Part shown: one piece after another, positions 2 through 19,925 of the stretch
Layout of the letters: each line of letters opens with the position of its first letter
How positions within the stretch are numbered: position 1 is the first letter of the stretch
Source: Bacteroidales bacterium
GTDB lineage: Bacteria; Bacteroidota; Bacteroidia; Bacteroidales; UBA932
NCBI GenBank assembly: GCA_017558775.1
Contig: JAFYTP010000032.1
Span: 1 to 48,702 of the forward strand
Length of the DNA: 48,702 nt
Direction of reading: 5' to 3'
Notes under the pieces: generated by a model
What the model was told of the DNA's origin: nothing
The model's input: only the letters and a program-made list of their open reading frames with translations
The model's database searches: none
Translations under genes and position numbers: made by a program

Positions 2-2005
2 CGGGATAAGATCATGATCATCATTGACAAGACGGAGAACGTCGTCTGGAACAATGTCTGGATGGTGCAGCAGTATCTGGACAAGCCCGACAGTCTGGAA
101 CTTGTGTGCAGACACATCGTGGAGGGCAACCCTACGGTAAGCGGTTCCACGGTGGCGCTTGTCCCCGGTTATAACCGTTCCCATAAGCTGTTTGCTCCTT
201 ATGTCTTCGAAAGCCGGGACAGTCTGGTGTTGCTTTCCCTCGCTACGGAAGAATATGACTATCCCTCGCAGGAATGGTTCGTCAAACCTCTCGAACTGGG
301 GGGAAAATACTGGTCGGAGCCCTATCTGGATACAGGTGGCGGTAACATCCTGATGACCACGTTGTCCGTCCCCGTCATGGACCGCAAGGGTAGGCCCGCG
401 GCCGTACTCACGGCGGATGTCTCGCTGGATTGGCTTACCGCGGAGGTGGGCAGCATCAAGACGTATCCGGATGCATTCAGTATGATTGTCAGCCGCTCGG
501 GCCGGATCATGGTATGTCCGGATGAGTCCTTCGTGATGAATAAGACAATCTGGGACCTGGCAGAGCAAATGGAAGATCCTGAGCCGTTTCTGGAACTGAA
601 CAGGCAGATGCTATCCTACCAGACCGGGAGTATGGTTGTCGATTTCAACCAGGACAAGCACTTTGTATTTTACGCCCCCGTGAAACGGACGGGATGGGCG
701 ATGAGCATCGTAGTACCTAAGAATACCGTTTACAGCGGCGTCCGAACCATCGGCCTGGTGACCCAGCTTATGCAGCTGCTCGGCTTGGCGATGCTTATCC
801 TGATTCTCCGATCTTTCGTCAAAAGCCTGTTGAAGAACAGGGATCTCAACGAGAAGAAGGAACGGATGGACCAGGAGCTCCATATCGCCAGTGAAATCCA
901 GTTGTCGATGGTTCCCAAGGTCTTCCCTCCCTTCCCGGAGCGCCACGACCTGGATATGGCGGCGACCATCGTCCCGGCCAAGGAGGTGGGCGGCGACCTG
1001 TATGATTTCTTCATCCGGGACGAGAAGTTGTTCTTCTGCATCGGCGATGTGAGCGGGAAGGGCGTGCCGGCCTCGTTGGTGATGGCCGTCACCCGTTCTT
1101 CCTTCCGCAACGCCGCAGGCAAGGAAGACAGCCCTGGAAGCATCGTGACGTCGATGAACGACAGCTTGGCCGCTATGAACGAAAACAATATGTTTGTCAC
1201 GTTCTTCTGCGGCGTGCTGGACCTCGCCAGCGGGCGGCTGCGCTACTGCAACGCCGGTCACAATCCGCCGAAGACGCTCACCGACGAAATCCGGACCTTG
1301 CCGGTCCAACCCAATCTTCCCCTTGGCGTTATCCCGGGAATGCAATACGTCGAACAGGAAACCGTTTTCCACTATGACGACGCCCTGTTCCTCTATACTG
1401 ACGGTCTCACCGAGGCCGAAAACACCCAGCACGAGCAGTTCGGCGATGAACGGATGCTAACGGCCCTGCATACAAGGGAATCCGCTGACAAGCATCTGGA
1501 GAATATCAAACAGAAAGTGAAAGGATTCGTGGGTGAAGCGTCTCAGAGCGACGACCTGACGATGCTGTTCATCCATTATCTGGGCGGAAGCCAGCCGGAG
1601 GTCCGGCACCTCACCCTGCACAATGACATCCGACAGATTTCCCTGCTGCCCGGATTCCTTGAGGAGGCTACCCGTGATATGGACATCGCCCCGAGCGTCA
1701 CGAGCCAGCTGAACCTGGCCCTGGAGGAGGCCGTTGCCAATGTCATCAGCTACGCCTATCCGGAAGGGACCGATGGGACCGTGGACATCGACGCAAAACG
1801 GGATGGGAACAGCATTTCCTTCGTCATCTCCGACAGCGGAACGGCTTTCGACCCTACTGCCCGGGAAAGTGTCGATATTTCCGCGGGTGTGGACGAGCGT
1901 CCGGTCGGCGGGCTCGGCATCCACCTCATCCGGGAAATCATGGACACGGTGAGCTATGAACGCCGGGACGGCAAGAACATATTGACAATAACCAAAAACA
2001 TTTAA
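2..2005 (+). CDS. Membrane sensor / PP2C (SpoIIE-RsbU) phosphatase with RsbW-like ATPase domain, 5' partial
   Basis: This is a signalling protein of the partner-switching type. The reading frame is open to the left edge, so the N-terminus lies outside the window; residue numbers here count from the ATG at 14. Residues 1-240 look like the outer part of a Cache sensor domain, followed by a membrane helix at about 245-268 and a charged linker. The PP2C domain (about 290-520) has the metal-binding stretches GGDLYDF and GDVSGKG and a late SDDLT. The last 120 residues form a histidine-kinase-type ATPase fold with an N-box (LALEEAVANVISYAYP) and a G-box (VGGLGIHLI). Having the phosphatase and the anti-sigma-kinase-like domain in one chain is known in RsbU/RsbW fusions. 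The STAS gene four bases downstream is the expected substrate. The input signal and target sigma factor are not visible. Confidence 0.9.
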   Translation, partial: RDKIMIIIDKTENVVWNNVWMVQQYLDKPDSLELVCRHIVEGNPTVSGSTVALVPGYNRSHKLFAPYVFESRDSLVLLSLATEEYDYPSQEWFVKPLELGGKYWSEPYLDTGGGNILMTTLSVPVMDRKGRPAAVLTADVSLDWLTAEVGSIKTYPDAFSMIVSRSGRIMVCPDESFVMNKTIWDLAEQMEDPEPFLELNRQMLSYQTGSMVVDFNQDKHFVFYAPVKRTGWAMSIVVPKNTVYSGVRTIGLVTQLMQLLGLAMLILILRSFVKSLLKNRDLNEKKERMDQELHIASEIQLSMVPKVFPPFPERHDLDMAATIVPAKEVGGDLYDFFIRDEKLFFCIGDVSGKGVPASLVMAVTRSSFRNAAGKEDSPGSIVTSMNDSLAAMNENNMFVTFFCGVLDLASGRLRYCNAGHNPPKTLTDEIRTLPVQPNLPLGVIPGMQYVEQETVFHYDDALFLYTDGLTEAENTQHEQFGDERMLTALHTRESADKHLENIKQKVKGFVGEASQSDDLTMLFIHYLGGSQPEVRHLTLHNDIRQISLLPGFLEEATRDMDIAPSVTSQLNLALEEAVANVISYAYPEGTDGTVDIDAKRDGNSISFVISDSGTAFDPTARESVDISAGVDERPVGGLGIHLIREIMDTVSYERRDGKNILTITKNI

Positions 2006-15407: not shown

Positions 15408-17135
15408 ATGCTCCTACAGATCCTTACTCTGCTCGGCTCGCTGGCGATGTTCCTGTATGGTATGTCCCTGATGAGCGGCGGTCTGCAAAAAATGGCTGGA
15501 AACCGACTCCGGGTTTTCATGGCCAAAATGACATCCAACACCTTTAAATGCATATTGACCGGTATCGTGGTGACCGCCATGGTGCAGAGTTCGACGGCGA
15601 CCACCCTGTTGATCGTGAGTTTTGTCAATGCCGGTTTGCTGGCGCTGGGAAGCGCTATCGCCGTGATCATGGGCGCTAACATCGGTACGACGGTGACCGC
15701 TTGGATCTTCGCCCTGAGTTTCGGAGGAGGCAGCTGGAGCATCGCCACCATCGCCATTCCGCTGATGTTCTTCGCCTTCCTGGGCCTGAACTCCAAGAAA
15801 TACGCGAATCTGGGTGAGTTCCTGATGGGTTTCGCCCTCCTGTTCCTGGGCTTGTCGATTTTGAAGGAAACATCGACAGTACTCCTTGATAATGAAGGCG
15901 TTCGTTCCTTCCTCTCTACCCTCTCGGGCTACGGAATCTGGAGTATTTTCCTGTTCATGCTGGCGGGCGCTATCATCACCCTGATGCTGCAGAGTTCCGC
16001 CACCGCAACGGCCATTACGATGGTGCTGGTGGCCCAGGGATATATACCCTTCACGATGGCAACGGCCATGGTACTGGGCAGCAACCTCGGTACCACGGTG
16101 ACGTCCAACATCGCAGCCTCGGTGGCGAACCAGAGCGCGAAACGGACGGCGCGGGCCCACTTCCTGTTCAACCTGTTTGGTGTGATCCTCGCGCTGATCT
16201 TCTTCAAGCCGTTCATCAAGCTCGTGGGTTTGACCGTGGAAGCGCTAGGCTTCCCCAACCCTGTCACGGTCGATTTTGCCGGGGCCGATGCTGCCACGCA
16301 GGAATCCCTCATCGCATCGCTGCCGTATAGTGTCGCCGTTCTCCACTCTGTGTTCAATATCATCACGACGCTCATCCTGGTCTGGTTCATTCCTCAGCTT
16401 GTCAAGATGGTGACAATGATGGTCCCGAACAAGGGTGAGGAGAAGGAAACCTACCGGCTGAAGTATATCGGTATCGGCAATATCGCTACCGGTGACCTGG
16501 CCCTGAACAGCGCTAAGATGGAAGTCGTTGAATTCGGCCATCTTTGCCAACGGGATCTCGCCTATATCCGGAGTGCTATCAATGCTACCACGCAGGGGGA
16601 ATTTGACGAGGCCGACAAGAAACTGATCCACTACGAGGAAGTCACCGACAACGTGGAACGGGAAATCGCGACCTACCTCCGCGAAGTCTCCAAGAACGAG
16701 CTGAGTATCAGCGGTCTCGCGCGTATCCGCGAGTTCTACCGCATCATCGGCGAGATGGAATCCTTGGGCGACAGCGGAGAAACCATCGGCAAAATCCTTT
16801 CGCGCGTTTGGGAGCACAAGTGCCGGTTCACGGACCACATGCTCCAGCAGCTGAACCAATTGCTCGATCTGCTGGATAAGGCCTATGTCGCCATGGACCA
16901 TAATCTCTCCACTCCCCTGATTGAGCTTACGGACATCCATAATGCGGAAGAAGCGGAAGCGGCCATTAACGAGTATCGGGATTGCCTCCGTAACGAACAC
17001 CTCACCAACATCGAGAAGTCGTCCTATCCATACGAGACGGGCTCTTTCTACATGGATGTGGTGAACTGTATCGAGAAGATGGGAGACTTCATCATCAACA
17101 TCTCCCAGAGTGTCTACGGCGCCAAGACGGTTTGA
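15408..17135 (+). CDS. Na+/phosphate cotransporter with PhoU-like C-terminal domain
   Basis: This 575-residue protein carries the two inverted Na/Pi repeats, each with its QSS signature: MVQSSTATTLL in the first and MLQSSATATAI in the second. Residues 1-330 hold about nine membrane helices; residues about 350-565 form a cytosolic helical PhoU-like domain. The family (NptA, YjbB) moves phosphate with sodium. Its stop overlaps the ATG of the next gene by one base (TGATG), indicating coupled translation with a PagL-like enzyme. It diverges from the PstS-like lipoprotein, so phosphate handling is the clear local theme. Confidence 0.93.
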   Translation: MLLQILTLLGSLAMFLYGMSLMSGGLQKMAGNRLRVFMAKMTSNTFKCILTGIVVTAMVQSSTATTLLIVSFVNAGLLALGSAIAVIMGANIGTTVTAWIFALSFGGGSWSIATIAIPLMFFAFLGLNSKKYANLGEFLMGFALLFLGLSILKETSTVLLDNEGVRSFLSTLSGYGIWSIFLFMLAGAIITLMLQSSATATAITMVLVAQGYIPFTMATAMVLGSNLGTTVTSNIAASVANQSAKRTARAHFLFNLFGVILALIFFKPFIKLVGLTVEALGFPNPVTVDFAGADAATQESLIASLPYSVAVLHSVFNIITTLILVWFIPQLVKMVTMMVPNKGEEKETYRLKYIGIGNIATGDLALNSAKMEVVEFGHLCQRDLAYIRSAINATTQGEFDEADKKLIHYEEVTDNVEREIATYLREVSKNELSISGLARIREFYRIIGEMESLGDSGETIGKILSRVWEHKCRFTDHMLQQLNQLLDLLDKAYVAMDHNLSTPLIELTDIHNAEEAEAAINEYRDCLRNEHLTNIEKSSYPYETGSFYMDVVNCIEKMGDFIINISQSVYGAKTV

Positions 17136-18286
17136 TGAAATTCCAACACTTCATACTGAGTCTGTCGTTACTTCTTGCCGGAATGGCTGGAAACGTGGCG
17201 GCACAGGATTTCTCGTTCTTCGCAGGCCGGAGCAAGACCCTGTACGACGGCCGGTATTATCCGGACATTTTCGGGGAGGGTGTCGCCCCTAAGTTCAACA
17301 CGTTCGATTTTAGGGTGGGATGGACTGACTACAGTTCCTCCCCTTTCGCATCGATCTGCAACCATCCTGAAATGGGTGTAGGTTTCCAGTTGGATGGACT
17401 CTCTTCTATCCAAGCGGTCAATGGCCCCGGCATGGGCAATATCTACAGTCTCTACGGATATATCGACAGGCCCCTGCTAGTTCTGGGCGATTTCAGCTTC
17501 GGGTACAGCGGTGAGTTCGGGCTAGGGTTCATGTTCCGGAATCGCTACGATCCGGTCGTCAACCCCTGGAATGTGATCATATCGACACCTGTCAATGCTC
17601 ATATCTCCATCGGGGTCCAGGCGCAATATGCGTTATCATCGCGGTATGACGCCGGCATCGGCTTTTTCTTCAACCACCATTCGAACGGTGCCGTCAGCTT
17701 CCCGAACTATGGATTGAACGCCTTCGAGCTAGCGCTGCGCCTCGGAATGAAAGCTCCCCGCACTGAAGCGGAACTGCACCGCAAACCGGAAGACGACGGA
17801 TTCAAATCCGGGTTCCAGTTCGCAGTGCAGGTTTCCAGCGGCATCATGAGCAATGAGGCCAACTATTGGTACAGCATTGAAAATGAAGGTGTCTGGGTCA
17901 ATAAGCGCTACTTCAAGTATTCTTTGGAGGTCAACGCCCTCTACAGATACTGCCGCACGCATGCCACGGGTTTAGGTGTCGATCTGTTCGTCACCCCGTT
18001 CTGTGACAAGGTCGCGGAATACGACGGCCGAGGGGAGACCTATGATCCCTACTCCTACGGCATCGCCGTCCTGCACGAGCTGAGCTATCGTAATTTCTCG
18101 ACGATGGTCGGTTTAGGCCGATATCTGCATCACCACGACGGCCTGTCCCGAAAGAACCTCTACCAGCTGGTGACGGTCAAGTACTACTTCCCGCAGTATG
18201 CCGATGTGTACGCCGGAATTGTCCTGAAGGCCCACAAGTTCAAGGCGGCGGAATCCATCCAGTTCTGCATCGGCAAGCGGTTCTAA
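17135..18286 (+). CDS. PagL-like acyloxyacyl hydrolase family outer-membrane protein
   Basis: This 383-residue exported protein has a signal peptide ending at about residue 24 (NVAA-Q). Most of the mature part has the strand pattern of a beta-barrel. The segment FFFNHHSNGAVSFPNYGLN (from residue 177) matches the PagL active-site signature, with His181 and Ser183 as the candidate catalytic pair and Glu198 a possible third residue. PagL removes the 3-O-acyl chain from lipid A; this protein is about twice as long as PagL, as is common in Bacteroidota members. The ATG at 17135 overlaps the symporter stop by one base; a TTG three bases earlier is not needed. Confidence 0.78.
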   Translation: MKFQHFILSLSLLLAGMAGNVAAQDFSFFAGRSKTLYDGRYYPDIFGEGVAPKFNTFDFRVGWTDYSSSPFASICNHPEMGVGFQLDGLSSIQAVNGPGMGNIYSLYGYIDRPLLVLGDFSFGYSGEFGLGFMFRNRYDPVVNPWNVIISTPVNAHISIGVQAQYALSSRYDAGIGFFFNHHSNGAVSFPNYGLNAFELALRLGMKAPRTEAELHRKPEDDGFKSGFQFAVQVSSGIMSNEANYWYSIENEGVWVNKRYFKYSLEVNALYRYCRTHATGLGVDLFVTPFCDKVAEYDGRGETYDPYSYGIAVLHELSYRNFSTMVGLGRYLHHHDGLSRKNLYQLVTVKYYFPQYADVYAGIVLKAHKFKAAESIQFCIGKRF

Positions 18287-18288
18287 GT

Positions 18289-19206
<918 letters not shown>

Positions 19207-19231
19207 AACTAATTGATTTAAGTAAATTAAT

Positions 19232-19264
19232 AAAAACCCCTGCGCAATCCGGGATTGGCAGGGG
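19232..19264 (-). terminator. Intrinsic terminator (attenuator) in the cysK leader
   Basis: On the reverse strand CCCCTGC and CAATC pair with GATTG and GCAGGGG (one bulged C, loop of three), followed by five T. It lies 25 bases before the cysK ATG and about 40 bases after the leader-peptide stop. The 5' arm contains CCAATCC (19258 to 19252), which is perfectly complementary to GGATTGG inside the leader ORF (19332 to 19326), a candidate antiterminator. Confidence 0.85.
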
Positions 19265-19304
19265 CATGTTCATATTTGCTAAGTTGAAATATCCGCTAGA
19301 ATAC

Positions 19305-19370
19305 TCAGGCAAACAAAGCTCCGTACCAATCCAAAAGACCGGCACAGCAGCAACAAGTATTTGCCTTCAT
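19305..19370 (-). CDS. Cysteine-rich leader peptide upstream of cysK
   Basis: This 21-codon ORF begins MKANTCCCCAG, has the four Cys codons TGT TGC TGC TGT at positions 6-9, and ends at a TGA ten residues later. It sits about 12 bases below the predicted transcript start and ahead of the terminator that precedes cysK. Four consecutive codons for the product of the controlled gene are the hallmark of an attenuation leader: ribosomes short of Cys-tRNA would stall here. An in-frame ATG at 19379 could add three residues, but it would be nearly leaderless. Confidence 0.8.
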   Translation of the reverse strand: MKANTCCCCAGLLDWYGALFA

Positions 19371-19385
19371 CGTAAACATCTGATG

Positions 19386-19416
19386 CAAATGTAAGTAAAG
19401 ATTTTTAAAAAGCAAA
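19386..19416 (-). promoter_or_regulatory. Promoter of the cysK leader transcript
   Basis: On the reverse strand TTTG (19413-19416), 19 bases, then TACATTTG (19386-19393): a perfect Bacteroidota promoter. Transcription should start near 19382 and run through the leader peptide and attenuator before cysK. Confidence 0.82.
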
Positions 19417-19472
19417 TGTTTTCAGGAAGTTTTGTAACTTTACCCAGAATCTGAACGATAACGGAACCATCT

Positions 19473-19925
19473 ATGAAACTCGCAGAAGCATTGAACCAGC
19501 GGGCGGACCTTCAAAAGCGGATCGCCCAACTCCGAGAACGGCTCGCCAACAACGTGAAGGTGCAAGAGGGGGACCAGCCGGCCGAGAAGCCGGAAGACCT
19601 CTTCAAAGAGCTTGAAAGCGCCCTCAAGCAGCTGAAGGACATGATTGTCAGCATCAACCGGACCAATCAGGAAACCGTCTGGGAAGGAAAGACCCTGACT
19701 GAGATGATTGCCGAAAAAGATGTCCTGTCGATGCATCTTTCCGCCCTGCGCTCCACCCTCGATTCCGCCAATGTGCGCAGCGACCGGTATTCCCGGAACG
19801 AAATCAAGTTCGTCCGGACCATCGACGTGAACAAACTTCAGAAGGAAGTCGACAACCTATCCCGGGATCTACGGGAACTGGATTCCAAGCTGCAGCAGGC
19901 GAACTGGACAACGGACCTCAAGTAA
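19473..19925 (+). CDS. DIP1984 family protein
   Basis: This 150-residue, strongly helical and charged cytosolic protein (KLAEALNQRADLQKRIAQLRERL, later EVDNLSRDLRELDSKLQQANW) matches the DIP1984 family, sometimes annotated as septicolysin. The function is not established. Heptad-like spacing at both ends suggests coiled coils. No signal peptide or enzyme motif is visible. A weak -7-like box TAACTTTA lies at 19435-19442. It is a single-gene unit. Confidence 0.85.
   Translation: MKLAEALNQRADLQKRIAQLRERLANNVKVQEGDQPAEKPEDLFKELESALKQLKDMIVSINRTNQETVWEGKTLTEMIAEKDVLSMHLSALRSTLDSANVRSDRYSRNEIKFVRTIDVNKLQKEVDNLSRDLRELDSKLQQANWTTDLK

Follow-up and report, generated by a model that had tools for sequence, protein, structure and literature searches.

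The window, by which we mean the whole stretch of 48,702 nucleotides that was analysed, belongs to a Bacteroidales bacterium (contig JAFYTP010000032.1) and carries cysK on its minus strand. As checked on the letters, cysK is preceded on the same strand by a Bacteroidota-type promoter, a leader ORF and an intrinsic terminator, in that order. The promoter, the Cys codons, the GGATTGG and CCAATCC letters and the terminator claimed in a preliminary description of this DNA were all found on the minus strand where it had placed them. The features are the following.

19413..19416, minus strand: −33 box, TTTG
19386..19393, minus strand: −7 box, TAcaTTTG, ending 6 nt upstream of the leader ATG
19305..19379, minus strand: leader ORF, probably 24 codons plus stop, MFTMKANTCCCCAGLLDWYGALFA; ATG at 19379, stop at 19307-19305
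19344..19355, minus strand: candidate control codons TGT TGC TGC TGT, Cys 9-12 (from letters, shuffles and relatives)
19337..19347, minus strand: strand 1, CTGTGCCGGTC, overlapping the last Cys codon and pairing with strand 2; putative protector or pause hairpin
19321..19332, minus strand: strand 2, GGATTGGTACGG, candidate antiterminator strand within the leader ORF
19252..19263, minus strand: strand 3, CCCTGCCAATCC, able to pair with strand 2 and forming the 5′ arm of the terminator
19236..19265, minus strand: terminator hairpin 3:4, −20.1 kcal/mol (from folding)
19232..19236, minus strand: T-run of the terminator (from letters)
18289..19206, minus strand: cysK, cysteine synthase A, the putatively regulated gene (TIGR01139, 433.3 bits, cut-off 350.95)

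The two promoter boxes are separated by 19 nt (TTTG at 19416-19413, TAcaTTTG at 19393-19386) and fit the consensus TTTG / TAnnTTTG given in the accessible part of PMC7366714. The assignment of cysK rests on a TIGR01139 score above the cut-off, and the gene thus makes the amino acid that the leader is proposed to sense, as in trp-type attenuators. Downstream of it lies a convergent ORF of 384 aa (17132-18286, plus strand), while the divergent neighbour on the other side (19473-19922 of the window, plus strand) encodes a DIP1984 family protein (NF038048). A cysE-like gene found in the genome scores 151.5 bits, under its cut-off of 210.65.

The ORF with four consecutive Cys codons was present as described, with a length that is more likely 24 than 21 codons. 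The longer form, which starts at the ATG at 19379, is preferred because it makes the first Cys codon 9, the position found in 35 of 48 leaders from relatives. Such an ORF is not expected by chance: among 5000 dinucleotide shuffles of the 210-nt leader, an ATG ORF with CCCC never occurred, and one with CCC occurred in 14.

GGATTGG at 19332-19326 indeed begins 11 nt past the last Cys codon. Its complement CCAATCC (19258-19252) is present in the 5′ arm of the terminator as had been proposed, the 7 nt given for this pairing being too short, as strand 2 and strand 3 are complementary at 11 of 12 positions (19332-19321 with 19263-19252), which takes up most of that arm. Among 500 single-letter shuffles of the sequence that follows the Cys codons, only 1 was as complementary to the terminator arm. 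The terminator 3:4 and the antiterminator 2:3 share strand 3, as trp-type attenuators require. A further pairing, missed in the preliminary description, joins 19347-19337 to 19331-19321 and forms the 1:2 hairpin, which is supported three ways, by pattern listing, by folding and by covariation. The 1:2, 2:3 and 3:4 helices together are, by analogy, a complete trp-attenuator arrangement. A simple scan for sigma-70 promoter and terminator patterns, which is ill-suited to Bacteroidota, reported the 1:2 hairpin but not the real, bulged terminator, which was identified by folding.

Conservation and covariation among relatives

A scan with the cysK protein of named genomes yielded 80 loci, mostly from Bacteroidales MAGs with some from other phyla, and two of them belong to Candidatus Cryptobacteroides. 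A search of the genus added 29 loci besides the window's own, six of which duplicate named loci. An ATG ORF with a poly-Cys pattern was found in 23 of 103 distinct cysK upstream regions, the window included, where shuffles would give 0.5. From these data, 25 leaders chosen by the presence of a poly-Cys ORF and a terminator were aligned with MAFFT (alignment A1), and a covariance model, R1, was built from A1 with helices 1:2 and 3:4 only. A second alignment, A2, holds 50 leaders fitted to 1:2 and 3:4 and not to 2:3.

The Cys codons are conserved in relatives, a point on which the preliminary description had made its reading depend. The run holds at least three Cys in 46 of 48 leaders if one interposed codon is permitted, and just two codons in the other 2. 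In 28 of the 48, strand 2 follows the last Cys codon at a distance of 12 nt. The stop codon lies 10-20 nt past strand 2 in 38 leaders, 0-7 nt past it in 5, and before or inside it in 5.

The spacing at the 5′ end was compared in the same set. With a relaxed pattern, 24 of 48 leaders have a −7-like box whose end is 5-9 nt upstream of the leader ATG, and 12 have the strict TAnnTTTG, ending 6-8 nt upstream; in the remaining leaders the −7 box is further off or none was found by the pattern scan. At the usual spacing, the 5′ UTR in the window is predicted to be a few nt at most, which would be leaderless-like. This would be unusual, since short 5′ UTRs are rare in B. thetaiotaomicron, where only about 3.7% are below 10 nt according to the accessible sections of PMC7366714. 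In one locus (L009) ARAGORN places a tRNA-His gene at 1749-1824, directly ahead of the Cys leader, and the pattern scan found no −7 box there; this leader may be co-transcribed with the tRNA.

Compensatory changes were found on alignment of the relatives in both the antiterminator and the terminator stems. For helix 2:3, 81.7% of 542 cells of A2 are paired compared to 74.2% in shuffles, and 54 cells are altered on both sides compared to 22.8. When the helix is slid out of register, the pairing falls to 43.2% or less. The number of pairs with a two-sided change (7) and the number of pair types (19) are not above the shuffles, and two of the 11 positions are mostly unpaired (column 59 in 38 of 50 rows, column 61 in 32 of 50). 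For helices 1:2 and 3:4 taken together, 90.6% of 788 cells are paired (79.4% in shuffles) and 97 are altered on both sides (30.9 in shuffles). Helix 1:2, which corresponds to columns 19-31 with 51-59 of A2, covaries with 85.2-88.7% of its cells paired. A1 gives a similar picture for all three helices.

The match between strand 2 and strand 3 was also assessed by permuting the partners. The mean score of strand 2 against its own strand 3 is 19.3, while permuted partners give 15.7 (sd 0.49, maximum 17.8), and the own-partner score was equalled in none of 20000 permutations of the 41 distinct pairs obtained from the 50 leaders. The own strand 3 is the single best partner in only 2 of the 41 (median rank 8), and in L140 and L148 it scores below the average of the other leaders' strand 3. 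The scores of single rows are modest because many leaders share letters, and the argument rests on the aggregate permutation and the covariation counts rather than on single rows. As the permutation and shuffle controls ignore relatedness, a cysK tree was used to show that the changes are spread over lineages. This tree, built for 47 rows by a quick method with 19 of 44 inner branches open, gives at least 11 switches between standard pairs for columns 53/142 of helix 2:3.

The compensatory pairs can also be followed by eye. The window has GATTGG/CCAATC, L128 has GACTGG/CCAGTC, L120 has GATCGG/CCGGTC, L119 has GGATGGTGCA/TGCATCATCC, and L007 and L117 have GACCGATA/TGTCGGTC, this last row being off register in A2. 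By the counts given above, all three helices covary.

These results bear on a different reading of the locus, in which stalling would act on translation by changing access to the cysK start, or on the loading of Rho, and the hairpin would constitutively terminate a part of the transcripts. Leaders of this kind have parallels, as a conserved terminator hairpin is lacking from the poly-Cys leaders of mycobacteria in the portion of PMC1262725 available, and these are termed translation attenuation in that of PMC13236596; four poly-Cys leaders ahead of cysK in another class, described below, likewise come without a clear separate terminator. In the window, however, the leader is separated from cysK by an intrinsic terminator with a T-run, and the arm of this terminator covaries with strand 2, a feature that neither a Rho nor a translational scheme would need. 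We consider control through translation or Rho unlikely here.

The reading phase of strand 2 distinguishes the RNA from the peptide. Relative to the Cys codons, strand 2 occurs in all three frames, in 34, 11 and 3 of the 48 leaders (counted by hand, with L149 and L152 corrected since their first strand-2 columns are gaps). The letters GGTTGGTACGG thus read Trp-Tyr-Gly in L112 and Val-Gly-Thr-Val in L137. The occupation of three frames indicates that it is the RNA, not the peptide, that is conserved. A functional Cys-rich micropeptide, for instance a metal or redox sensor whose ORF is unrelated to the terminator, could draw on the possible binding of a metal by four adjacent cysteines and on the recurrence of the Trp-Tyr-Gly motif in many leaders; however, the letters behind that motif occupy three frames while the RNA stays conserved, the residues outside the Cys run are variable by eye, and the helices covary. 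Such a peptide function is very unlikely.

Letters like GCGTGTATAG recur near the leader stop in many leaders of A2, and possibly form part of the inner stem of the antiterminator or a pause signal.

Folding states and the proposed mechanism

The states of the leader were modelled by minimum-energy folding of 48 leaders, in which strands were hidden to mimic the ribosome. For the whole leader with no ribosome, 3:4 forms in 42 of 48, 1:2 in 34 and 2:3 in 6; before strand 4 is synthesized, 1:2 forms in 28 and 2:3 in 14. If strand 1 is hidden, as by a stalled ribosome, before strand 4 is made, 44 of 48 leaders form 2:3, compared to 158 of 960 foldings with the letters of strand 2 shuffled. With strand 2 hidden, as by a ribosome at the stop codon, 3:4 forms in all 48. 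With strand 1 hidden in the full RNA, 3:4 forms in 29 and 2:3 in 16 of the 48, and the leader of the window prefers 3:4. Since the terminator is favoured in the full RNA even when strand 1 is hidden, the switch must be set during transcription.

A ribosome covers about 12-13 nt ahead of its A-site codon. Strand 2 should stay accessible whichever of the four Cys codons the ribosome stalls on, and should be covered once the ribosome is at the stop codon.

The element is very probably a trp-type ribosome-mediated transcription attenuator that reads charged tRNA-Cys and controls cysK. In the proposed mechanism, RNA polymerase would start a few nt before the leader AUG, as suggested by the −7 box, and a ribosome would translate the leader. 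When Cys-tRNA is ample, the ribosome would proceed to the stop codon, located 13 nt past strand 2, and would cover that strand; 3:4 would then pair and transcription would end upstream of cysK. When Cys-tRNA is scarce, the ribosome would stall on the Cys codons and cover strand 1, strand 2 would pair with strand 3 once the latter is made, no terminator would form and cysK would be transcribed. With no ribosome, 1:2 and 3:4 would form together and transcription would end. The stalling, the time course and the dependence on cysteine are what we infer in this scheme. The attenuation reading put forward in the preliminary description is thus supported at the level of the sequence as the best account of the locus, given the parts, their order, their conservation and the three covarying helices, all of which emerge from the letters and their comparison with relatives.

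Distribution and relation to known systems

The R1 model was run over genomes at increasing taxonomic distance. Matches were obtained in 41 of 400 genomes of the genus. A sample of 149 genomes from the family gave 6, namely the own genome and five that belong to a single other genus. In the order, the own genome was the single match among 393, and in the phylum there were 2 among 296, one of them again the own genome and the other from a different class. Of 10 genomes behind named loci, 5 matched. Of 47 matches that were examined, 44 lie directly upstream of a cysK homologue, in Bacteroidales. Among the three matches with no cysK directly following, L142 is cut off by the contig end, and L143 is apparently rearranged, the terminator letters being gone and a 25-residue cysK fragment present. 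At the third, L150, leader and terminator look complete but are followed by a convergent ORF and no cysK; this is possibly a remnant or an assembly error. At L002, where cysK is 91% identical, a terminator-like hairpin (CCCTGCCAATCTCCGG...) is kept and a poly-Cys leader was not found upstream, which possibly reflects a recent loss of the sensor half.

The sole distant match, L159, is from another class and lies directly upstream of a cysK of 52% identity. Its leader encodes MTPAHFMANCCCCCKTCQSEREACI and has its own terminator and complementary strand. More generally in the phylum, a poly-Cys ORF was found within the tested 360 nt in 7 of 89 cysK upstream regions, with 0.5 expected; these regions comprise 29 automatic loci and 60 stretches hand-picked among the matches listed, and the automatic ones were cut at a fixed offset, so that at least one of them (L172, near a contig start) partly covers the gene. 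L226 and L230 also have a terminator, the 5′ arm of which is complementary to leader sequence that follows the Cys codons. The observed complementarity was reached by 1 of 500 single-letter shuffles for L159, 10 of 500 for L226 and 0 of 500 for L230. In the same stretch as the Cys leader of L230, on the strand opposite to cysK, there is a SAM riboswitch (RF00162, 81 bits, 383-498, plus strand).

Four loci of one family in another class (L200, L203, L210 and L212) have poly-Cys ORFs (e.g., MKQHILSVSLFCLCCCCGLPSPII in L210) that stop 116-209 nt short of the cysK end of the fetched stretch. The scan listed no clear separate terminator for them: in L200 there was only a hairpin of −10.6 kcal/mol that overlaps the leader, and in the other three nothing was listed. 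These leaders may act by another route. Three candidates were set aside as attenuators, namely the doubtful L205, counted among the 7 of 89, where the Cys run stands at the end of a 44-codon ORF and the scan listed no terminator, and L193 and L233, where the poly-Cys matches are far upstream.

Poly-Cys leaders ahead of cysK are thus seen in several families outside the window's class. The RNA letters of these poly-Cys ORFs differ from those of the window's family. This has a bearing on whether the leader could be a riboswitch that senses a metabolite directly, the Cys codons being incidental. The leader is conserved and structured, its hairpins exclude one another and a biosynthetic gene lies downstream, all of which would be compatible with a riboswitch. 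The recurrence of poly-Cys ORFs on different RNA letters argues against it, as does the lack of any conserved loop or junction discernible by eye beyond the pairing strands, save the letters near the leader stop. The Rfam 15 covariance models likewise gave no family at the gathering score within the window, the sub-threshold matches in 19100-19600 having E values of 0.79 to 8.2. Direct sensing by a riboswitch is extremely unlikely.

Attenuation of cysK by Cys codons, to return to the favoured reading, stands about an even chance of being old or repeatedly invented across the phylum, with a near-leaderless uORF that couples translation closely to transcription.

In the trp, his and leu attenuators of Enterobacteria, a leader with consecutive codons for the product amino acid is followed by the alternative hairpins 1:2, 2:3 and 3:4 and a terminator. 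The present element resembles them in its control codons, its three alternative hairpins, the overlap of strand 1 with the control codons and the intrinsic terminator before the gene, and differs in the amino acid (cysteine), the gene (cysK), the phylum (Bacteroidota) and the predicted near-zero 5′ UTR. Poly-Cys leaderless short ORFs of mycobacteria were reportedly the subject of work by Canestrari in 2020; the predicted 5′ UTR of a few nt at most would make the window's leader ORF leaderless-like. Poly-Cys leaders of mycobacterial cys operons appear in Seliverstov 2005 (PMC1262725). As far as the accessible part of that paper goes, they resemble the present element in having consecutive Cys codons within a small ORF upstream of genes for cysteine, but they have their Cys codons near the stop and no conserved terminator hairpin, whereas the window has a terminator. 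The uORFC-8-2 motif of Rhodobacterales cysS, for which ribosome-mediated attenuation was proposed (PMC8632094, as available in part), is also a uORF with tandem Cys codons and an intrinsic terminator; it differs in the gene, which is that of the cysteinyl-tRNA synthetase, in having two Cys codons, which mostly occupy positions 14 and 15, and in its occurrence in Rhodobacterales.

Within the phylum itself, leader-peptide candidates, with attenuation suggested, come from Bacteroides thetaiotaomicron and Flavobacterium psychrophilum (PMC7366714, PMC9723704). These too are short ORFs, located within long 5′ UTRs or upstream of amino-acid operons, and the portions of the two papers at hand note no cysteine or cysK case among them. 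The preliminary description knew of no cysK example in Bacteroidota, and our literature search recognised none, although an earlier mention is possible (e.g., in Lopatovskaya 2010, cited in PMC4833913, or in Canestrari 2020). As judged from the sequences, this is a known mechanism on a new gene and in a new phylum, a predicted Cys attenuator supported by covariation.

The element would be an instance of classical attenuation in Bacteroidota that is backed by covariation. In this phylum, short ORFs within 5′ UTRs were suspected of such a role, in the literature as partly accessible to us, with no worked example. The mRNAs of this phylum do without Shine-Dalgarno sequences. Since classical attenuation needs a ribosome close behind the RNA polymerase, the element could serve to probe the coupling of transcription and translation in such a phylum. 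It also predicts a tuning of cysteine synthesis in uncultured rumen and gut Bacteroidales, and it would provide a native cysteine sensor for reporters.
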